Assembly (NCBI GenBank): GCA_018672315.1
Contig: CP076053.1
Span: 2,529,827 to 2,593,826 of the forward strand
Length of the DNA: 64,000 nucleotides
Direction of reading: 5' to 3'
From: Nocardioidaceae bacterium
GTDB taxonomy: Bacteria > Actinomycetota > Actinomycetes > Propionibacteriales > Nocardioidaceae
Under the pieces are notes generated by a model. That model was not told the DNA's origin. It was given only the letters and a program-made list of their open reading frames with translations, and did no database searches. Each line of letters opens with the position of its first letter. The first letter of the stretch is position 1. The position numbers were made by a program, and so were the translations under genes. Below, one piece after another: positions 17,810-39,798 of this stretch.

Positions 17810-17885
17810 GGTTGAGGAGGTCGCCGCTAGGCGGCCGTCTGCTCGGTGGTTGAGGAGTTCGCCGCTAGGCGGCCGTCTCGAAACC
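17810..17885. repeat. Two 38 bp copies of a dispersed palindromic repeat
   Basis: Copies start at 17810 and 17848. Both read GGTTGAGGAG then TCGCCGCTAGGCGGCCGTCT; the second is completed by CGAAACC, so its outer ends (GGTGGTT and AACCACC) pair and GCCGC-TAG-GCGGC forms an inner hairpin. The second copy encodes the last residues and the stop of the minus-strand regulator gene ending at 17865. Confidence 0.9.
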
Positions 17886-19478
17886 ACCCGGTGTGATCGC
17901 CGGCCCGAGCTCCAGCCACCAGCGAGCATGACCCGCCAGGGGATCACCGGCGCTCTGCGCGACGGTCATCAGACACGGCGACCCCGTCATGCCCGCGGCG
18001 AAGAGCGCTGCTCGTCGCAGGGTCTCCGACGTCGTCGCCAGCGCAGCGCTGATCGCCGGCGTGATGGTCTCGCCGTCGGCGCCGCAGCTGCCGAGGGCGT
18101 ACAGGAGTCGTACGCGGAGGTCCTCAACCGTGTCCTCCCGCAACGACCGCTCCTGCATGAGAGCGACGTGCTCCGTGGTGGCGAGGGCGCTCATCGCGCT
18201 GGCGGCCTGGGCGGCGATGACGGGCTCCGGGTGCTCGAGCAGGCCGGCGAACTCGTCCGCGACGGCGGTCCTGTACGGGCTGGCGGCCAGCAGGATCGCA
18301 GCGCGTCGCCGACGGGCCTGGTGGCCGTGGAACAGCGCCTCGCGGACGAGGCGGTGGAGCATCTCGTCCGGTTCCACCGCTCGGTTCTGCGCTGTGGCGT
18401 CCTGGATGCGGGGCACGCAGTCCTCGAGAACGCTGAGCACGCGGGAGCGGGGCAGCACCTGGCCGTGACGCAGCACCGCCTCGAGTCGTCGCCTCTGGTC
18501 GCCGGCTGCCGCGGCGGCGCGCAGGCGGTCCAATGCCTTCGGCGGCATCCGGGCGATGACGTCGGTGATCTCGACGTGCGCGTCGGGCGCCCCGCCGAGA
18601 CGCGCGTGCATGAGTCTCTCGAGGTCACCGGTGATCTCGGGCTCGAGGTGACCGCGAGCCAGCGCGGCGGCGGCCGCCCAGCCGGCGCCGTAGCGGATTG
18701 GGTCGGACCCCTGCGCCAGCATCTTCAGGATGAGGCGCTGCGCCTTGCGGTGCTTGACCTCTCCGAGCAGCGTCAACGCGGGGGCGACCGACTGGGCGTG
18801 GGGATCGGTGAGGAAACGACCGATCGCCCTGAGTCCGGCACGCCGTCCGCGTGGCGTCGCGAGAAGCACGCGCATCGCCTCGTAGCGGGCGGTGAACTCG
18901 TGCTGGGTCGCTCGTACGGTCTCGCGCAGCAGCTCGTCGGTCAGGTCGGCCCACAGCTGCGGCGGGAGATAGACCGATTCGTACGTCGCGAGCGTCTCGG
19001 CCAGGCGCAGCCACGCACCACCGTCGAGGCCGCCTTCCGCGCGGGCCGAGAAGATTTCGTCGAGGGTGTCGTCGGCCGCCGGCCCGTCGACGACAGGGTT
19101 CTCCCGAGTCGCAGGCTCGAGCGACGCTGCGTGACAGATCAGGTGCCCCTGGGGCAGACCGCACAGCTCCTCGTACGCTGCCACCGCCGTCCGCGGCACG
19201 GGCAGGCCACCGGACTCCCAGCGCGAGAGGCGCGCCTGGTCGCAGGTCACTCCGACGTCGCGCAAGGCAGAACCGAAAGCTCGCCGCGAGCTGATCGGTG
19301 GGGGAGCGGCGTACACGCGGCAGGCCGCGAGAAGCCATCCGAACCGCGTGCGCTCCCCACCGTCGGTGGCCGTGATGGGGGTGGGGTCGTCAGGAAATCT
19401 GAACGGTCGACCTCGGCCGCGGTTCGGCGGCGCCGTAGACGCCAGGGGCTGCCGGGGGTCCGAGTTCGACCAGTTCAC
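17865..19478 (-). CDS. XRE-type regulator with long alpha-helical repeat region (R1)
   Basis: 537 residues, cytoplasmic, no named family recognised. After a short Pro/Arg-rich N-terminus (RGRGRPFRFPDD) comes GERTRFGWLLAACRVY and a helix-turn-helix of XRE type ending in DQARLSRWESG (about residues 45-95). The remaining 400 residues are Ala/Leu-rich helical pairs like HEAT repeats, with the block PDEMLHRLVREALFHGH near residue 390. R2 (23339-24919) shares all of these. GTG 19478 is preferred since GGGAG lies 5 bases upstream; TTG 19535 is possible. It is divergent from P1, which it probably controls. Its C-terminus and stop lie in a dispersed repeat. Confidence 0.82.
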   Translation of the reverse strand: MNWSNSDPRQPLASTAPPNRGRGRPFRFPDDPTPITATDGGERTRFGWLLAACRVYAAPPPISSRRAFGSALRDVGVTCDQARLSRWESGGLPVPRTAVAAYEELCGLPQGHLICHAASLEPATRENPVVDGPAADDTLDEIFSARAEGGLDGGAWLRLAETLATYESVYLPPQLWADLTDELLRETVRATQHEFTARYEAMRVLLATPRGRRAGLRAIGRFLTDPHAQSVAPALTLLGEVKHRKAQRLILKMLAQGSDPIRYGAGWAAAAALARGHLEPEITGDLERLMHARLGGAPDAHVEITDVIARMPPKALDRLRAAAAAGDQRRRLEAVLRHGQVLPRSRVLSVLEDCVPRIQDATAQNRAVEPDEMLHRLVREALFHGHQARRRRAAILLAASPYRTAVADEFAGLLEHPEPVIAAQAASAMSALATTEHVALMQERSLREDTVEDLRVRLLYALGSCGADGETITPAISAALATTSETLRRAALFAAGMTGSPCLMTVAQSAGDPLAGHARWWLELGPAITPGGFETAA

Positions 19479-19737
19479 GAGGGCTCCCGAGCGCCGAGGA
19501 TTGCTTGCGTACGAGCCGGGCAAGACACGGTTCAAGCCCTGGCGTACTTATTTGTTTCACAGGTCCGTCTTGGCATGCAACTACTGCCGGTATCCGCCGT
19601 GCCGCCCCTAGCGTCGAGCGCGGTCCGCAGGCCTTGCCGTCTGCGGACCCTCCTGGGGCGATGTTGAACCTGCCCCGGGGGATCAGCTCCGCGGGGGAAG
19701 GCCCCGTGGAGAGGACTCCACGAAAGGGAAATCCTCC
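19479..19737. promoter_or_regulatory. Divergent promoter region between R1 and P1
   Basis: 259 bases with no gene. It holds ATTTGTTTC (19550-19558) and TTGGCATGCAACT (19570-19582), both echoed in the R2-P2 region, so they may be promoter or operator elements. A hairpin with a 9 bp stem (19622-19649) and a 6 bp hairpin (19706-19721) fall in the likely 5' leader of P1. The second ends at the CGAAAGGG ribosome binding segment. No convincing -10/-35 pair was fixed. Confidence 0.5.
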
Positions 19738-23338: not shown

Positions 23339-24919
23339 TCAGCGTTGCTCGAAGATTCCCGCGCCGGAGACTTGCCACCATCCCGCTTGCGCTCGGTGCG
23401 GGCCAGGCGTGTGCGCCAGTTTGCTCAATACGGAGGAGCCGTTCATGCCGGCCGCGTACATGCCGGCGCTCTGCGTACGTCCTGAGGACGACTGGATGCT
23501 CTCTGAGGTGAGTACCTCGTCCACTCCGACGCCGCAGCGCACGACAGCGCGAAGCGCGAGAGCGCGTACGCGGCCGTGGCTCCACGTGTCCACGAGGGCG
23601 ACCAGCCGTTGGCTCTGCTCGGGCCCCGCCCACCAGCACAACGCGCTGAGGAGTCGCTCGTCCACGTCCTCGCCGTACTCGCCGAGACAGCTTAGGGCGG
23701 CCTCGGCCAAGGCGTTGCGGTACGACGACGACATGACCGTGGTCATTGCCAGATAGCGGCGCTCGGCGTGCCCGTGGAACAGCGACTCACGGACGAGTCG
23801 GTGCAGCATCTCGTCGGGTTGGATCCCGCCCTCAACGGGTGCCATGGACGACAGCGTGTGCGAGACGAGCGGCTCGACGACCTCGAGTGAACGGGCCGCA
23901 GGGACTTCTTCGCCCGTACGCTTCACCGCCATGATGCGCTCTCGCTCGGGCCTATTGCGCTGGTCGAAGAATCGTTGGCCGGGGAGCGCGGAGAGACGCG
24001 CGGCCACATCGACGAGGGCGCGGGCCTTCGATGCCTGACCGTCCAGCGCCGCAACACGTCGTTCGATCATCATGCGCGTCTCGGCGCAGAGCGAGGGCGA
24101 GCTCAGTGTGTGCGCGAGAGCCCAAGCGGCGCCGTCGCGCCGGTTGTGGTCCTCAGAGGTGAGCATTCGCAGGGCTACGGCGCTCGCGTGTGCGTGCTCG
24201 GTGTGGGCGAGGATAGAGACGACCTCTGGTGTCACCGGCGAGGCCCACGAGCTGACGACGTTCTCGAGAGCATCAAGCACGGCAAACGTCGTCGGTCGAT
24301 GTCCTGCGAGCATCTTCAGCGCAGCTCGTCGCGCGACGAACTCGCTCCCGGTGGATCGCATGAGCTCGTCGGTCAGCCGTCCGGTGAGTCGTTCACGCTC
24401 GACGGGGGAGAGATAAAGACCAGGCATGCGGGTGAGCAGGTCAGCAAGCCGGAGCCACTCGAGTCCAGTGATGACGGTCCAGCTGCCACTCAGCTTGTCG
24501 AAGCGGGCGTCGAGGTCGGCGCGCGCTTCGTCAGAGTCTTGGGCGCCGTGGGTGTCGGGCATTACCGCGGAGAGCGCGTACGCGGCCGGCACCAGGGGGT
24601 CGGTGGCGCGGTCTGCGAGTGACGCGTACGCCTCAAGCACCCGCACGTTCGGCGCCGCCGACCCGGATTCCCACCGACTCAGACGAGCTTGGTCGGACGC
24701 GATGCCGATGGAGCGCAGGTGCTCGGAGAGGTCGACGCGGCGCGCGAGATGCGCCGGAAAGGCGTAGAGACGGGTCGTCGCCAGCAACCAGCCGAAGCGG
24801 GTCTGCTCGCCCCCGCGAGTCGCTGTCAGCGGCGTCTGGTCGCTGGGGAGGGAGAACGGTCTGCCCCGCGGGGGCTTTGGACGTTGGGACGGATCCGCGT
24901 CAGCGCTGCCGACACCCAC
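23339..24919 (-). CDS. XRE-type regulator with long alpha-helical repeat region (R2)
   Basis: 526 residues, paralogue of R1 over its whole length. Shared blocks are RGRPF, TRFGWLLATTRLYAFPA, DQARLSRWESG (helix-turn-helix, about residues 38-90), PDEMLHRLVRESLFHGH (about 400) and MYAAGMNGS near the C-terminus. Between them the sequence is clearly diverged, so the duplication is not recent. GTG 24919 is well placed, 8 bases after a perfect AGGAGG. It is divergent from P2 and convergent with P1. The helical part may sense a wall or envelope signal or bind a ligand; this is inference, since no sensor family is recognised. Confidence 0.85.
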   Translation of the reverse strand: MGVGSADADPSQRPKPPRGRPFSLPSDQTPLTATRGGEQTRFGWLLATTRLYAFPAHLARRVDLSEHLRSIGIASDQARLSRWESGSAAPNVRVLEAYASLADRATDPLVPAAYALSAVMPDTHGAQDSDEARADLDARFDKLSGSWTVITGLEWLRLADLLTRMPGLYLSPVERERLTGRLTDELMRSTGSEFVARRAALKMLAGHRPTTFAVLDALENVVSSWASPVTPEVVSILAHTEHAHASAVALRMLTSEDHNRRDGAAWALAHTLSSPSLCAETRMMIERRVAALDGQASKARALVDVAARLSALPGQRFFDQRNRPERERIMAVKRTGEEVPAARSLEVVEPLVSHTLSSMAPVEGGIQPDEMLHRLVRESLFHGHAERRYLAMTTVMSSSYRNALAEAALSCLGEYGEDVDERLLSALCWWAGPEQSQRLVALVDTWSHGRVRALALRAVVRCGVGVDEVLTSESIQSSSGRTQSAGMYAAGMNGSSVLSKLAHTPGPHRAQAGWWQVSGAGIFEQR

Positions 24920-25175: not shown

Positions 25176-28100
25176 ATGGCAAGCAGCGGCATCAAGCGGG
25201 GACTGGCCAGCACGGCCGTCGCCGCTCTCGCAGTTACCGGCGCACCCATGCTCGCGGGCGTGGCCAACGCCGTCCACGAGACCAAGGTGATCAGCCAGTA
25301 CACCGGCCTCGCCTCCATCAAGAACGATGGTCAGAACACGACGATCCGTCTCGAGGCGGACAGTGCAGCGCAGGCCGGCACTACGACGCGGTTCGAGTAC
25401 CGCATCGCGGCAGCCGCGGGAGCAACCGAGAACCCGTGGCAGACCATTGCCACCGTGGACCGGAACGACGACGGCTTCTTCTCCTTCGAGTGGGCGACCA
25501 CCCTGGTCGGCGTGACCGTCGACCTTCGCGCCGTCGGCATCAGCCCCACCGGTGTCGAGGACCCGAACGCGGAGGTCCGCGAGGACGTCCAGATCGTCGG
25601 ACAGGGCCAGGCCGCTGAGTCGGTCAACCTGAACGAGGCCTCGCAGGCTGGTGTCTTCCAGCAGCCGAACTACGACACCACGGAGAACGGCTTCAACGTC
25701 ATTGTCTCCGGCACCACGTCGGCCACCGGCGGCGACGTGACCGTGTCGCGATACACCGACACCACGTCCACCGGCGAGCCCACCCGTCCCACCGGCGTGC
25801 AGACGGGTGAGCAGGACTTCGCGGTCACGGCCGCTGATGGCGCCACCACCGGAACCTTCAAGGGCGTGTACGACCTCCGTGAGGGCGACGCGCCCTACAA
25901 CTTCGCCGCCCAGGACCCCGACTTCGTTGCCCTCGGCGCCGAGCGCGACTCCGACGACGTGGAGGGCTACACCCTCTACCAGCAGACCATCACCACCGTG
26001 ACCGCCACGGCCAACCGCACCAACGTGCCGATCGGTCAGACCGCGAACGTCACGGTCACCGTGACCGACCAGAACGGCAACCCGATCGCTGGCGCCGAGG
26101 TGCTCGACAGTGGCGCCAACGGGACCACGACCTCGAAGTTCACCAACGCCGACGGCCAGGTGACCTACACGCAGGGCAACGGCACCGAGTTCTACTACGC
26201 GAACGCGACGGACTCGGACCCCTTCGAGGCGACCCGCGGCGACGTGCGCTCGGACAACGTGACCGTCAGCGAGTTCCAGCAGGCCCCGAGCTCGCTGCAG
26301 TTCGTGTCCTCCGACGGCTCGGCCTTCGACTTCGACGAGAACCAGGCCGACGACCTGTACGTGCAGGTCAAGGACCAGAACGGCAACAACCTCAACACCG
26401 ATAGCCAGACGGTCGACTACTACTACGAGTTCACGCCTTTCAGCGCGACCTCGACCACCCGGCGCTTCCCGACCACGGGCACCTTCACGGCCATGGAGAC
26501 CGACAGCGGTCGTTACAACTTGGCCCTGCCGCCCGGTGCCGAGTCCGGCACCTACCGGGTCTTCGCGGACCTTAACGAGCGGCCCGTCACGGGTGGCCAG
26601 GGCATCGCGAACAGTCAGGTCGGCAGCTTCAAGGCCGGTCAGGCGACGCTGTCGTACGACCAGAGCGCACCCGTGCAGTCCACCGCGGGCGGCGAGACCA
26701 CCGTCTCCGGTGAGCTCTCGCTCGAGGACGGCACCGGGTTGCCGGCACGCGGTGTCCAGCTCGACTACGCCGAGGATGCCTCCACCGGTGGCACCGACGC
26801 GCAGAGCGCCGCGTTCAACCAGCCCAACAACGCCGCCGGGCAGCCTCAGGCCGACGCGCGCAGCATCGACCTCACCACCGACGGCAACGGCACCTTCTCC
26901 GCCGTCCTCGACGACCCGGCCGCTCCGGCGAACACCGCCGCCGCGGACGAGACCGGAACGGTCACTGCGTCGACCGAGGACCGCATCACCACCACGACGG
27001 GCAACGAGCCCGACGGTGACCCGAACGCTGCGGACCGGACCCTCCAGGTGCAGTTCCTCGCCAACGGCACCACCCCCGCCACGGTGGTGATCAGCGGCGG
27101 CGATGCCGATGACGAGGTGGCTGGCGAGCTGGAGACCTACACGGTGACCGTGCGCTCCGCCAACGACCCGGCCACTGCGGCGGACGAGTCGCGCCTCCTG
27201 TCCAACCAGCAGGTAACCCTGACCACCACCGACGGGTACTTCACCGACGGTGTGCCGCAGGGTGCCGCGGGCGACGACACCGGTGTGTTCGACAACGACG
27301 GCCAGACCAAGACCGTGACCACCAACGGTGCCGGTCAGGCGACGTTCTCGATCGCGATCGGTCGCGATGAGGGCTTTGACGACGACGGTCAGGTGGACGC
27401 GACGATCACCGCGACGTCCGGCAGCGCGTCTGACACCCAGGCACAGGGCTTCACGTCTGAGAACCCGATTAACGCAGGCGAGATCACCCTCGAGTTCGAC
27501 GACAGCACCTCGGACTCGAGCAACCTGCCGCAGGCTCAGCAGGGTGACCAGGTGAACTTCCTGGTGAAGACCTTCGACCAGTTCGGCAACCGCGTCGGTG
27601 GCGAGCCGTTCTCGATCACGAGCAACAACCCGGACTCAGACGCTTTCGAGCGGACCGGGACGACGGACTACGACGAGCGCTTCGACGCGACCCTCGACTC
27701 GACCTCCGGTGAGGACGAGACGGTCACCGTCAGCTGGACCAACGACCGCAGCACGCTGGCGGCCGATGGAGGGGACGCCGGCACGGCGCCGGACACTCAG
27801 TACCGCAATGCCGAGGAGACGGTGACCGACGCTCTGACGGTCAACTTCTACGCGATCGACTACGCCAACAGCACCTTCACGCTGGAGAACAACACCGGCG
27901 ATCAGGCGACTGTCGGTGAGACGGTTACTGAGACGTACACTGCTCTCGACCAGACCGGTGAGCCGATCGACGACCTGTACGTCGAGTTCTTCCGCAACGG
28001 TCCGGGCAACTCGGAGGACCGTGGCAACGGTGACTTCGATGGCTTCACTGGTGCCGACGGCCAGATCTCGTACGTGTTCACCGGCCAGGCCGCTGGCGAT

Positions 28101-28880: not shown

Positions 28881-30128
28881 ATGCCCCGTCGTACGCCCCG
28901 CTTGGTCGCTGCGCTGTCCGCCGCCGCCCTCGTGACCTCACCGCTGTCCTTGACGGCCACCGCCGAGACGTCGGACGACTTCGACCTCTTGCTGTCGTCG
29001 CGCGACGCAGCCGCGTTCGACTTCGCGGAGTACGACGGGCCCGGTTCGTACGACACCTCCGTCGCGGTCGTGAGCCGCAGCGGACGGGGGTTCTCCGATG
29101 AGCGCGCGCCTGACGGGGCCGAGGTCCGCTACTACTGGACCATCAACCCGTTCGACCCCTCGGCCGAAGAGATACGGGTGCCAGACACCGAGGGCTCCTT
29201 CGAGGTCAACGACGACCCCCGATACACCGGCGACGGCGACGCACTCGGCGGTGACATCTTCGACGTGCCGTTCCCGGCACAGCAGGCCGTACCTGGTGTC
29301 CACACCCTCCACGCCACCCTCGTCACGCCCGCTAATGAAGCCGAGACGGCGGCGCAACCGCCGTACGCCGCCATCGACAGCGTCACTGCCGGCAACGCCG
29401 CGCTGACGCTCGACCAGGACGAGCTGGTCGCCGACCTCGAGGAGGTCGTCCGCATCAGCGGCACGCTCGCCCTCGAGGACGGCACCACCCTGCCGCGTCG
29501 ATTCATCAGCCTCGACTACACGCCCGCGACCGACCGTGGCGCCAGGTCCGCGACCTTCCTGCCGTACTCGTACGCGACCCGCCCCCTGCGAGCGCGCACG
29601 AGCACCGGTCGCGTGACCGATCGCGACGGCATCTTCGAGGCCTACCTCGCCGGGAACGAAAGGACGCCGTGCGAGTCCACCGCGGTGGCTGAGTCGGGCA
29701 CCCTGTCCGTCGCTGCCGAGCAGATCCCGGTCGACAGCCCATTCCTCCGGGGCGACCTGCCATGGTCCACGGTGCAGGGGGACTTGTACGCCCCGGGCGA
29801 CCCCGTTCCCACACAGTTTGGCCAGGCCTCGGACGACCCGCCCGCCCCCGTGCACCCCTTGTTGTCGCTACGCGGGCGAAGCAACGGCGCCCAGGACGAC
29901 TTCATGCTCGCCAAGGGCGGTCGCCTCATCGCGGGTGAGGTCGTCCGTCTCTACCGCACGGGACTCGGCCGGGGCCGCCAGCTTGTCGGCCGGGACCGCG
30001 CCGGTTACCGCGGCAACGTCGGATTCACGGTGCCGGACCGCAACGGCCGACGACCCGCCACGTACCGCGCCGTGATGCACGCCGGCGCGGCGTGCACTGT
30101 CCCCTCGAACCGTCAGCGCATCCGATGA
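28881..30128 (+). CDS. Secreted reduced paralogue of P1/P2 (P3)
   Basis: 415 residues. Signal peptide 1 to about 28 (ending ATA). It keeps three modules of P1/P2 in the same order: AAAFDFAEYDG with YYWTINPFDP (about 40-165), ALTLDQDEL with TLALEDGTTLPRRFISLDY (about 170-290), and the C-terminal domain from LLSLRGRSNGAQ to SNRQRIR. All Big-1-like modules between them are missing. The C-terminal domain is less conserved than in P1/P2 and holds a cysteine (AACTVPS). P4 starts on its stop codon (ATGA). Function is unknown; probably wall- or surface-associated. Confidence 0.78.
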   Translation: MPRRTPRLVAALSAAALVTSPLSLTATAETSDDFDLLLSSRDAAAFDFAEYDGPGSYDTSVAVVSRSGRGFSDERAPDGAEVRYYWTINPFDPSAEEIRVPDTEGSFEVNDDPRYTGDGDALGGDIFDVPFPAQQAVPGVHTLHATLVTPANEAETAAQPPYAAIDSVTAGNAALTLDQDELVADLEEVVRISGTLALEDGTTLPRRFISLDYTPATDRGARSATFLPYSYATRPLRARTSTGRVTDRDGIFEAYLAGNERTPCESTAVAESGTLSVAAEQIPVDSPFLRGDLPWSTVQGDLYAPGDPVPTQFGQASDDPPAPVHPLLSLRGRSNGAQDDFMLAKGGRLIAGEVVRLYRTGLGRGRQLVGRDRAGYRGNVGFTVPDRNGRRPATYRAVMHAGAACTVPSNRQRIR

Positions 30129-30493
30129 GGGCGCGCATCGCAACAGCCATCGCCACGGTCGGACTCGTCACCAGCGCATCGGGAGCGTACGCCCTCTCGC
30201 CGTTGCCAACGCCCTACCTGCAGCTGCGGGCAGAGCACAACGGCGCGCGCGCTGACGTCCTCGTTGTGAAAGCACCCCGCTACACCGCGGGCGGCACCAT
30301 CGACCTGTTCCGCACGGCTTCGCCCGGCAAACTGCGCTGGCTGATGGACACCAAGACGTCCAACAAGCACGGCGACGTGCGCTTCCGCGTCAAGGACCGG
30401 AACGGCGCCGAGGCCACCGAGTACCGCGTCGTCCTCCGCGCCGCCGAGGGGGACTACCCACGCTCGGTCTCGAACAAGAGGCGGGTCCGATGA
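30125..30493 (+). CDS. Secreted minimal paralogue: signal peptide plus C-terminal domain (P4)
   Basis: 122 residues. The signal peptide (about 1-24, ending AYA) is followed almost directly by the basic C-terminal domain: LQLRAEHNGARADVLVVKAP, RYTAGGTIDLFRT, TSNKHGDVRFRVKDRNG, and the end SNKRRVR. Nothing else is present, which shows that this domain is a stand-alone folding unit. ATG overlaps the stop of P3. It could compete with or cap the anchoring sites of P1/P2 (inference). Confidence 0.82.
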   Translation: MRARIATAIATVGLVTSASGAYALSPLPTPYLQLRAEHNGARADVLVVKAPRYTAGGTIDLFRTASPGKLRWLMDTKTSNKHGDVRFRVKDRNGAEATEYRVVLRAAEGDYPRSVSNKRRVR

Positions 30494-30512
30494 CTCTCGC
30501 GCTCGAGGTGTG

Positions 30513-31811
30513 ATGAGGGTGGTCCGCGTACGCACCAGGCAACGCTGCGCCGCCGTCGTCGGGGGTCTCGCGCTGGTGTTCGTGCCCGTGGCGGCGTACG
30601 CGCTCGAGACCGAGACCGAAAGCGATACGGCGCCCCGCCTCCTCGATGCGCACTCCGAGGACGGTCTCGCCTTCGACGTCGACGAGTACACCGGCGACAG
30701 CGCGCGCAGCGAGATCACCGTGACCGTCACCGACCTCGCCGGGCAACCCGTCCCCGTCGGCGCGGAGGAGGAGCTGCGGACGTACTGGACCGTCGACCCC
30801 TTCGACGACATCGCCCAGAGCCCTCGCCCGCCGGCTCGCTCCGGCCCCGTGGTCACACACCAGACGGTGCGCGACGTCTCCACGATCGACGTGATCCCAC
30901 CGATCGGAGCACGCGTCAGCGGCGTCTACCGGCTCCACGCCGGCCTCGTCCCGAAGGGCGTACGGGAGGTCGGCCCCGACGCGTACGACGAGGTCCTCGA
31001 GCTCACCATCGGCGAGGCCTCGCTGACGCTCGACCAGTCGCCCCTGGTCATCAGCGACCACAAGGCCGGTCATCCGCCGCCCGCCGCGCGCACCACCGCG
31101 AGCCCCGGCAGCGTCCGCGCCCGCCTCGCGCTCGAGGACGGCACCCCGCTGCCCGGCCGCGACATCGCCCTCAGCTACCGCGCCGACATCCCTGCCCCCT
31201 CGGGGCCGACCGAGGACGCCGGCCGAGCCCCCGATGCGGCCCTCAGCCTGCTCGTCGACCAGTACGACGACCCGACCCCCGGCACCGGCTCCCGCCTGGT
31301 CACCCGCACCACGGGCCCACACGGTCGCATCGCCGCGGACCTCGTCCTCCCAAGCGACACCACGGACCGGCTCGAGACCGGCATCGTCACCCTCGTCGTG
31401 GCCAACGACGACCGCGACGGGGCAGCCCCCGACGGCAACCTCCGTGCACGGTCGCAGCACGTGCACGTCGAGATGTCGTACGGCCGCGACTGCTGCTACC
31501 GCCCACGGCTGGTGGCCCACGACGACCGGGGCAGCGACCACCTCAGCGTCGTGGCCCTTCCACCGCGGGTCGACGGCGGTCGCGTCGAGTTCTCGCGCCG
31601 CGCGCAGGGCGAGCGGGGTGCCTTCCAGCTGGTCGAGCGACGCGCCGTCCGGGAGTCGACGGCCGACATGGGAAAGGCGACGGCCGAGCACAGCCGCACC
31701 GTCCGGTTCCGCGTGAGCGACCGCGACGAGGAGGCGCGTACGGGCTACCGCGTCGTGCTCTTCACCGCGGACGGCGCCATCGACCGCGTCTGGCGTGCAC
31801 GCATCCGCTGA
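30513..31811 (+). CDS. Secreted reduced paralogue (P5)
   Basis: 432 residues. Signal peptide to about residue 30 (ending AYA). It has the same three-module plan as P3: GLAFDVDEYTGD with TYWTVDPFDD, ASLTLDQSPLV with RLALEDGTPLPGRDIALSY, and a diverged C-terminal domain with TVRFRVSDRD, TGYRVVLF and the end RARIR. ATG 30513 is chosen, 8 bases after GAGG; a GTG directly before it (30510) is equivalent. It closes the P3-P4-P5 operon. Confidence 0.76.
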   Translation: MRVVRVRTRQRCAAVVGGLALVFVPVAAYALETETESDTAPRLLDAHSEDGLAFDVDEYTGDSARSEITVTVTDLAGQPVPVGAEEELRTYWTVDPFDDIAQSPRPPARSGPVVTHQTVRDVSTIDVIPPIGARVSGVYRLHAGLVPKGVREVGPDAYDEVLELTIGEASLTLDQSPLVISDHKAGHPPPAARTTASPGSVRARLALEDGTPLPGRDIALSYRADIPAPSGPTEDAGRAPDAALSLLVDQYDDPTPGTGSRLVTRTTGPHGRIAADLVLPSDTTDRLETGIVTLVVANDDRDGAAPDGNLRARSQHVHVEMSYGRDCCYRPRLVAHDDRGSDHLSVVALPPRVDGGRVEFSRRAQGERGAFQLVERRAVRESTADMGKATAEHSRTVRFRVSDRDEEARTGYRVVLFTADGAIDRVWRARIR

Positions 31812-34851: not shown

Positions 34852-35799
34852 ATGAGCGACCTGCCCGACCGACGCCTGCTGCTGGTGCACGCACACCCCG
34901 ATGACGAGACCATCGGCCAGGGCGTCACGATGGCGAAGTACGTCCGCGACGGCGCCCACGTCACCCTCGTCACCTGCACCGGGGGAGAGGAGGGCGAGAT
35001 CCTCGTGCCCGAGCTCGAGCACCTCGCCTCCGACCGCGAGGACCGCCTCGCCGAGCACCGACGCATCGAGCTCGCCGAGGCGATGCGCATCCTCGGCGTC
35101 ACCGACCACCGCTTCCTCGGCGGCTTCGGCGCCTACCGCGACTCCGGCATGGTCTGGCACGACGAGGGCCACGCCGTGGCCGGCGAGCACATCCACCCCG
35201 GTGCGTTCTGGGGCGCCGACCTCACGGCGGCGGCGAACGACCTCGTCGAGGTGATCCGCGAGGTCCGTCCCCAGGTGCTGGTCTGCTACGACGAGTTCGG
35301 CGGCTACGGCCACCCCGACCACATCCAGGCCCACCGCGTCGCGATGTACGCCGCCCAGCTCGCCGCCGTCCCCTCCTACCGCCGCGAGCTCGGCGAGGCC
35401 TGGGACATTCCCAAGATCTACTGGGGGGCCATGCCCGAGTCGCGCATGCGCGCCGGGCTGCGCGCCATCCGCGCCGCCGGCGACACCACCTCCTTCGAGG
35501 GCCTCGACCCCGACGGACCGCTGCCGCGCTTCATCACCCCCGACGCCGACGTCACCACCGTCGTCGCCGACGAGACCCTGGTCGACACCAAGCTCGCCGC
35601 GCTGCGCGCCCACGCCACCCAGGTCACCACCGACGGGCCGTTCTTCGCCCTCTCCGACAACTCCGGGCAGCAGGCGTGGGCGGCGGAGTACTTCCGCATC
35701 GTCAAGGGCGAGGCCGTTCCCGACCCCGAGGGCGGCGACGACCCCGATGTCGACGGTCAGCTCGAGACCGACCTGTTCGCCGGCCTCACGGCCGACTGA
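34852..35799 (+). CDS. mshB: Mycothiol biosynthesis deacetylase
   Basis: Removes the acetyl group from GlcNAc-inositol, the second committed step in mycothiol synthesis. 315 residues of the LmbE/PIG-L fold. The zinc site is formed by AHPDDE near residue 14 and GHPDHIQAH near 155. TCTGGEEGEI and FGAYRDSGM are typical of MshB rather than of the mycothiol-conjugate amidase Mca. The DUF6113 gene directly downstream is its usual neighbour. Confidence 0.94.
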   Translation: MSDLPDRRLLLVHAHPDDETIGQGVTMAKYVRDGAHVTLVTCTGGEEGEILVPELEHLASDREDRLAEHRRIELAEAMRILGVTDHRFLGGFGAYRDSGMVWHDEGHAVAGEHIHPGAFWGADLTAAANDLVEVIREVRPQVLVCYDEFGGYGHPDHIQAHRVAMYAAQLAAVPSYRRELGEAWDIPKIYWGAMPESRMRAGLRAIRAAGDTTSFEGLDPDGPLPRFITPDADVTTVVADETLVDTKLAALRAHATQVTTDGPFFALSDNSGQQAWAAEYFRIVKGEAVPDPEGGDDPDVDGQLETDLFAGLTAD

Positions 35800-37983: not shown

Positions 37984-38005
37984 CCGGGGAAACCTGCCGG
38001 ATGAA

Positions 38006-38033
38006 CTGGGCGAACGTTCGCGAACTGTCCCAG
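38006..38033. promoter_or_regulatory. Nested palindrome upstream of the metalloprotease
   Basis: GCGAACGTTCGC (38010-38021) is a perfect 12 bp palindrome, flanked by an outer CTGGG/CCCAG pair. It lies 20-47 bases before the GTG start at 38053. It may be an operator; it is not a LexA box because the four spacer bases are missing. Confidence 0.4.
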
Positions 38034-38052
38034 CGAGCCCTACGCTTGGCTG

Positions 38053-39798
38053 GTGCGAGCCACCCGTGACCGTCGTCCCCGTCTGCTCGCCCGGGCCGTC
38101 CCGGCCCTGACCTTCGTGGCGGCGCTGACCGTCCAGGGCCTCGCGGTCACCGCCCAGGCCGAGGAGCCGGCACCGGCGCCGACCGGGACGCCGGCCGGGA
38201 CACCGGCCGGGACGCCGGACCGCCCCGCCGAACCGGGTGCGGAGATGGGGCAGGAGCAGCGCTCGGAGCAGGCGGAGGAGACCCTGGAGGAAGTCCAGGC
38301 GATCCTGTCCGGGCAGGGCGAGCCCGCCGCGACGGGTGGGACGCCGGCCGACCCGGGGACGCTCCCACCGGGTCGCCTCGCGGAGGCAGCGGAGCCCGAG
38401 GCGCACCTCTCCCTCGCCCTGCGCGACCTCGGCATGCAGCTCGACGACCTCGGGCCCGCCGACAGGCGCGAGGCACGACGCATCCTGGCGCGACCGACGA
38501 GCTCGTACCAGGGCGACTACATCTCCTACCTGGCGGGCGCGGAGCTGAAGACCTCGTGCGGGCCGCAGGTGTGCGTGCACTGGGTCGACGAAGCGCCTGC
38601 CCGTGGTCGCGACGACACCCCGCCGCGGGCCGACACCGACGGCGACGGCGTCCCAGACCAGGTGCAGCTGACGCTCCGCACCTTCGAGAACGTCCGCAAG
38701 CGCACCGTGGCGATGGGCTACCGTCCGCCGCTCGTCGACGACGTGGACGTCGCCGACCCCGACGCCCGCGGCCGTTTCGACGTCTACCTCGCCGACCTCG
38801 GCTCGCTGCGCCCGTTCCCGCTGTTCGGCTACTGCGCCTGGGAGTCCAAGGCCGGGTACGACTACGCCGGTGCCGGCTACTGCGTCGTCGACAACGACTT
38901 CTCCGCGCGCCAGTTCAAGGCGCCGCCGCGCAAGAGCCTGCGCGAGACCATCGCCCACGAGTTCTTCCACGCCGTGCAGTTCGCCTACGACGCCGTCGAG
39001 GACCTGTGGTTCATGGAGTCCACGGCCACCTGGATCGAGGACGAGCTCTACGACCGCGCCAACGGCAACCGCAACTACCTCGACGAGTCCCAGCTCGCCT
39101 TCCCGAACCTGCCGATCGACGACCCGCTCGGCCGCTACGGCAACTGGGTGTTCATGCGCTGGCTCAGCGAGCGCTTCGGCCCCTCGATCGTGCTGCAGGC
39201 CTGGCGTCAGGCCGACTCGGTCGCCGGACCCGACAAGTGGGGTCTGCAGGCCATCGACACCGCGCTGCGCGCCCGGGGCACGACGCTCGCGGCGCAGCTC
39301 CCCCGCTACGCGGTCGACCTGAGGTTCGCCAAGCGCACCTTCGAGGAGGGCGGCGAGAGCAAGCTGTGGCGGCCGGCGTCGGCCGGTCAGCGCATCGGAC
39401 TGAGCCGGCAGGCGCCGGTCAGCCAGGTCCAGCGTCTCGTGGTGCGTCAGACCGGGTCGCAGTCCCTGGTCGTGCCGACCCGGGACGCCACCAGCGGCAT
39501 GCGTCGCCTCGTCGTCGCGGTCAAGACGCCGGCGAGGGCCCGGGGCGTACGCGTGAAGCTGGTGCAGGTGCGCAGCAACGGCAAGCGCGTCGTCCGTCCC
39601 GTCAAGGTCGACAAGCGGGGCTCCGGCACCGCGCGCATCGGGTTCGTGCGCAGCAACGTCGACCGCGTGCTGGTGCTCGCCACCGCCACCAGCTACAGGA
39701 TGGTGTGCTGGCAGCGGCCCCCCACGGGGTTCTCCTGCGACGGCGCCCGTGTCGACGACAACCTGCCGGTCGCGGTGCAGGTGGCCGGCCGGCGCTAG
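38053..39798 (+). CDS. Secreted putative metalloprotease (MXAN_6640-like)
   Basis: 581 residues. A signal peptide (about 1-36, ending AQA) is followed by a Pro/Thr/Gly/Ala-rich spacer. The catalytic part has DTDGDGVPDQVQ (calcium-binding-like), YCVVDNDF and the zinc motif HEFFHAVQFAYD near residue 305, with a downstream glutamate in FMESTATWIEDELYD. This is the pattern of MXAN_6640-type putative metalloproteases. The C-terminal 160 residues are beta-rich and may bind substrate or wall. Start GTG 38053. Confidence 0.88.
   Translation: MRATRDRRPRLLARAVPALTFVAALTVQGLAVTAQAEEPAPAPTGTPAGTPAGTPDRPAEPGAEMGQEQRSEQAEETLEEVQAILSGQGEPAATGGTPADPGTLPPGRLAEAAEPEAHLSLALRDLGMQLDDLGPADRREARRILARPTSSYQGDYISYLAGAELKTSCGPQVCVHWVDEAPARGRDDTPPRADTDGDGVPDQVQLTLRTFENVRKRTVAMGYRPPLVDDVDVADPDARGRFDVYLADLGSLRPFPLFGYCAWESKAGYDYAGAGYCVVDNDFSARQFKAPPRKSLRETIAHEFFHAVQFAYDAVEDLWFMESTATWIEDELYDRANGNRNYLDESQLAFPNLPIDDPLGRYGNWVFMRWLSERFGPSIVLQAWRQADSVAGPDKWGLQAIDTALRARGTTLAAQLPRYAVDLRFAKRTFEEGGESKLWRPASAGQRIGLSRQAPVSQVQRLVVRQTGSQSLVVPTRDATSGMRRLVVAVKTPARARGVRVKLVQVRSNGKRVVRPVKVDKRGSGTARIGFVRSNVDRVLVLATATSYRMVCWQRPPTGFSCDGARVDDNLPVAVQVAGRR

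Follow-up and report, generated by a model that had tools for sequence, protein, structure and literature searches.

Five neighbouring secreted proteins of a Nocardioidaceae bacterium were found to end in a common domain of about 95 residues, hereafter the CTD, which recurs at or close to the C-terminus of diverse proteins across the family. Because of its strict terminal position and its portability, a sorting or anchoring role is our best bet for this domain; such a role fits both the position and the pattern of carriers, as far as sequences can tell. The sequence family, the C-terminal position, the basic charge, the diversity of carriers, the predicted fold and the independence from the two longest proteins of the locus are directly supported. 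That the CTD is a non-covalent cell-surface retention module, probably acting on an anionic wall polymer, we regard as having about an even chance of being true.

The locus lies in a window of 64,000 nucleotides (the whole stretch of DNA analysed) from a complete genome of 3.6 Mb. Open reading frames and their translations gave five secreted proteins, P1 to P5, all on the + strand and each starting with an ordinary signal peptide. Their make-up was read with profiles of the modules D1-D9 and of the CTD, built from 26 family members. P1 (19738..23073, 1111 aa) and P2 (25176..28514, 1112 aa) share one layout, a signal peptide followed by the nine beta-sandwich modules D1-D9 and the CTD (22786..23070 in P1 and 28227..28511 in P2), and form acidic strings of beta sandwiches of about 1,100 aa. 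D5 corresponds to the AFDFDEY module and D6 to the LALEDGT module; in P2 they are of the AFDFDE type (26262..26585) and the LSLEDGT type (26592..26978). P3 (28881..30128, 415 aa) consists of a signal peptide, D5 (28989..29321), D6 (29379..29720) and the CTD (29847..30125). P5 (30513..31811, 432 aa, with an alternative GTG start at 30510) has the same series, with D5 at 30618..30944, D6 at 31083..31370 and a diverged CTD at 31497..31808. P4 (30125..30493, 122 aa) is a signal peptide and the CTD (30209..30490) alone. P3, P4 and P5 are arranged like an operon: the ATG of P4 overlaps the P3 stop codon, and P5 starts 17-20 bases past P4. Other subsets were observed in other genomes, always with the CTD present: D7-D9 plus CTD (L146, L086), D1-D6 plus CTD (L052, L056) and D9 plus CTD (L144).

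A preliminary description of this DNA had given the open reading frames and coordinates of P3, P4 and P5 correctly, and the module profiles bear out its reading of P3 and P5 as keeping D5, D6 and the CTD and of P4 as a CTD behind a signal peptide. Its statement that P3 and P5 lack all Big-1-like modules was too strict: D5 of P5 is weakly similar to Big_1 (E = 0.007, below the cut-off). It had also assigned a common terminal domain to all five proteins. This holds, and the last residues are RRQVR in P1 and P2, RQRIR in P3, KRRVR in P4 and ARIR in P5, with the refinement that the CTD of P5 is a remote copy, scoring 9.5-10 bits in the profile search and E = 7.6e-4 in profile comparison.

The CTDs of P1 and P2 are 67% identical and the other pairs within P1-P4 are 37-50% identical, so that, judged by identity, chance is excluded as the source of the likeness. 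Over the common modules, P3 is only 28-30% identical to P1 and P2, so P3 and P5 are paralogues that either are old or evolve fast, and not fresh truncations. Between P1 and P2, the remainder of the chain is 40% identical, and the share of identical codons is similar in the CTD (0.69) and elsewhere (0.60); this combination points to selection on the CTD and not to recent copying. No clear sign of recent gene conversion was seen in these codon shares. We do not claim a general homogenisation of CTDs within genomes either, as it was seen in some genomes (G000, G145 and G254) and reversed in others (G113 and G288).

We surveyed the family with several queries. A profile of the four window copies of the CTD gave 78 matching places, spread over 52 of 294 Nocardioidaceae genomes. 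The alignment of the same four copies was too narrow a query for the named genomes and gave no matches there, and the full-length alignment matched in them through the conserved signal peptide. The named relatives belong to Nocardioides, Aeromicrobium and Marmoricola, and P1/P2 orthologues occur, for example, in Nocardioides szechwanensis. Among all open reading frames of 40 loci, each of the 55 CTD matches ended within 16 residues of the stop codon, these offsets being the ends of local alignments. A 46-row profile then split the matches in two: those above 40 bits lay 0-6 residues from the stop, and those below 40 bits were generic Ig-like domains, mostly internal, with only seven of 33 within six residues of the stop. 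When distinct strong copies were pooled with those of the named loci, all 83 were within 0-6 residues of the stop codon, although these are not 83 independent events, since the loci were retrieved by the CTD search itself and the copies are related by descent. Carriers found later, mostly new, were also terminal, with one exception at 8 aa from the stop. The extreme C-terminal lock and the portability proposed at the outset are therefore strongly supported across the family, and the domain passed the profile search that had been suggested as a check, strong copies lying at the end and weak ones mostly inside.

The ends of proteins are usually poorly conserved, but the end of the CTD is unusually well conserved among the 83 strong copies. 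Of these, 80 have R or K as the final residue, compared with 22% R/K across the preceding 11 residues. Other positions, counted from the end, are also restricted: V, I or L at -2 in 70 copies, R or K at -3 in 54, N at -6 in 41 and S or T at -7 in 76. The terminal motif can be written as [S/T]-N-x-x-[R/K]-[V/I/L]-[R/K].

With the 46-row profile at E<=1e-8, CTD carriers were found in 60 of 294 Nocardioidaceae genomes (about a fifth) and in six of 26 genera. No full-strength copy was found outside the family among 394 class-wide genomes, a set that includes family members, and no non-family match scored above 39 bits; the best of these matches (G697) left 20 residues between its end and the stop, and the second and third were internal. 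The supposed likeness to the tails of other secreted actinobacterial proteins is thus true of the fold and, in the sampled genomes, not of full-strength copies. No Pfam or NCBIfam family describing the CTD was among the matches listed for 39 members at E<=0.1 (the best 25 of 30 Pfam families). It is a real and well-defined domain, with an ordinary fold, and apparently undescribed in the resources searched.

The carriers are chemically unrelated. Besides many Big_1 chains, they include three secretory lipases (PF03583; L072, L173 and L174, in three genomes), two metallophosphoesterase/laminin-G proteins (L042 and L170, in two genomes), a GH97 glycosidase (L073), a Calx-beta protein (L171) and a CarboxypepD_reg/SdrD_B protein (L183). 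In one genome (G254), open frames of 1364 and 615 aa have CTDs that are 80% identical and are otherwise without detectable similarity; in another (G208), a phosphoesterase and a P1-type protein have a common CTD that is 61% identical. Three CTD proteins lie together in one genome (L171): one of 615 aa and one of 847 aa have 76% likeness across some 500 aa, and the third has nothing in common with them but the CTD (75-80%). In three genomes that are 98-100% complete (G236, G184 and G053), a lipase or a phosphoesterase is the sole CTD carrier, and the P1/P2-family profile matched nothing else. Since an enzyme is the only carrier there, the usefulness of the CTD is independent of a P1/P2 protein.

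The 83 strong copies have a mean net charge of +13.7 (sd 5.2), compared with -8.1 for the 100 aa before the CTD. As the charge of single copies spans +1 to +27, a mechanism based on charge alone may not apply uniformly to them. Control generic Ig-like domains were also mildly basic (+7.8). The structure prediction of P4 that had been suggested earlier was run with AlphaFold and gave an all-beta, Ig-like sandwich for the CTD with a mean pLDDT of 90.6; P2 was modelled as beta sandwiches arranged in a string (pLDDT 80). The PDB structures nearest to the P4 CTD were generic Ig-type domains (best Z 10.8). These matches (Nir2, the N-terminal domain of the pectate lyase PelI, nanobodies and LAIR1) name no ligand and were not used to infer function. 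The whole-chain matches of P2 to alpha-2-macroglobulin and complement (TM about 0.15) were likewise set aside as mere strings of similar sandwiches. A sequence search of solved structures gave two weak matches below E 0.01, to 8qox (3.8e-05, 37 positions) and to surface protein R28 (0.0019).

According to the retention model, P1-P5 would be exported by Sec through their signal peptides, and the CTD would then hold them non-covalently on the envelope, with an anionic wall polymer as the most likely docking site. The part before the CTD, whether an acidic beta-sandwich stalk, a lipase, a phosphoesterase or a glycosidase, would be displayed outward. P3, P5 and P4 would be shorter members of one surface set, with P4 as the bare anchor. 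LytR-CpsA-Psr proteins usually attach wall glycopolymers, and the genome encodes three of them. In lactobacilli, cationic regions of S-layer proteins bind wall polymers (PMC2571106); this precedent and the three LytR-CpsA-Psr proteins speak for a polymer as the target. We counted against anchoring the wide range of net charge, the basic charge of the control domains and the PDB matches without ligand.

Known systems of surface attachment resemble the CTD in part. The WXL domain of lactobacilli and enterococci is C-terminal, about 120-190 aa long, binds the wall non-covalently and occurs in clustered genes (PMC5817068). Both domains end extracellular proteins encoded in clusters, but the CTD lacks the WXL motif and belongs to another phylum, and its wall binding is presumed where that of WXL is demonstrated. 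PF13731 was detected neither in P1-P5 nor among the Pfam matches listed for CTD members. In lactobacillus S-layer proteins, too, a variable body is followed by a basic C-terminal region that is conserved (PMC2571106), but we saw no sequence relation, and the CTD also occurs on enzymes and alone in P4. Bacterial Ig-like repeats such as Big_1 (PF02369) share the beta-sandwich fold and form much of the carriers' stalks; however, the CTD occurs once per protein, always in last place after the Big_1 modules, and did not match PF02369 above the cut-off. Sortases are present in the genome. Read directly, the protein ends are a folded domain with no hydrophobic tail, not a sortase-type ending with LPXTG-type motif, hydrophobic stretch and charged tail. 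SLH domains were absent from P1-P5 and from the whole genome, while the control matched in four genomes. WXL domains and the type IX CTDs considered below are the nearest functional parallels, not families that contain the CTD.

The strongly conserved last residue could also mean that the CTD is a sorting signal. A dedicated machine for export or attachment would recognise it and might cleave it, in the way the type IX secretion system (T9SS) handles type A CTDs. Those domains are seven-stranded Ig-like sandwiches that depend on their last 13 residues, which include conserved lysines (PMC10202324). The design is similar in its position at the extreme C-terminus, its basic final residues and its carriage by diverse secreted proteins and enzymes, but the likeness is an analogy. 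The CTD had no T9SS profile match (neither PF18962 nor TIGR04183 was among the matches listed at E<=0.1 for 39 members), and its host is monoderm; an asymmetric outer membrane that would have to be crossed is, to our knowledge, lacking in the actinobacteria of this family. The conserved neighbours (a thioesterase, a regulator and MshB) are not a secretion machine either. SprA_N gave no match in the genome, and none in the control. We consider such a sorting signal quite improbable. Similarly doubtful is a display pathway of the Nocardioidaceae's own, in which the [S/T]-N-x-x-[R/K]-[V/I/L]-[R/K]-COOH end would be recognised by a putative receptor, either a wall polymer or a protein machine; this monoderm equivalent of the type IX CTD would serve to coat cells in stalk proteins and hydrolases.

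An inert terminal Ig-like cap or stability domain without targeting role would agree with a fold that is the commonest beta sandwich and with the frequent decoration of secreted enzymes by Ig-like domains. However, a cap need not stay last nor keep its final residue, and the weak Ig-like matches seldom lay near the stop; P4 consists of nothing besides its signal peptide and this domain, and the P1/P2 comparison indicates selection on the CTD. We regard this as unlikely. The CTD might instead be a contact in an S-layer-like lattice, the basic CTD docking on the acidic body of the next subunit and P3-P5 serving as edge or filler subunits. In build, P1 and P2 do resemble known S-layer proteins; HPI, for example, has seven Ig-like domains (PMC12175726). 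A literature search for S-layers of Nocardioides or Nocardioidaceae found nothing relevant. The three enzyme-only genomes imply that forming contacts within a P1/P2 lattice cannot be the sole role of the CTD. Codon adaptation to ribosomal proteins was average for P1 and P2 (18th and 24th of 37 window genes) and among the lowest for P3 and P4 (33rd and 36th). Abundance at the level of an S-layer is thus unsupported, which does not prove low abundance, and a lattice contact seems to us rather improbable.

Our search of the available papers found no description of how proteins without sortase signals are retained on the surface of these actinobacteria. The CTD is an unusually clean candidate anchor, since it is small, single, terminal in every case, portable among unrelated enzymes and alone in P4. 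If anchoring is true, a likely location is obtained for many 'hypothetical' Nocardioides proteins and for some lipases, phosphoesterases and glycosidases, and the CTD could be used as a surface-display tag.

The genes for P1 and P2 each have a divergent HTH and HEAT-repeat regulator on the - strand (17865..19535 beside P1, a neighbour kept across the family, and its paralogue 23339..24919 beside P2); the two regulators are 34% identical. Regulator and surface gene adjoin in 23 of 40 family loci, often with MshB close by, and the pairing is doubled again in L055, so the two look like a duplicating unit. About 20 loci keep, in the neighbourhood of the surface-protein genes, the open reading frame that lies here at 34897-35799 and that we take to be an MshB-like deacetylase. 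The signal peptides begin with M-N/A-SSGIKRGLA (19738-19800 in P1, 25176-25240 in P2; also L076-L102), a start that is near-invariant across the family, far beyond the needs of a signal peptide; a DNA pattern built on this start alone retrieved 28 relatives. In the protein at 38005-39798, which is not a CTD carrier, an Ig-like domain was weakly matched (17.8 bits) at an internal position, 54 residues before the end.
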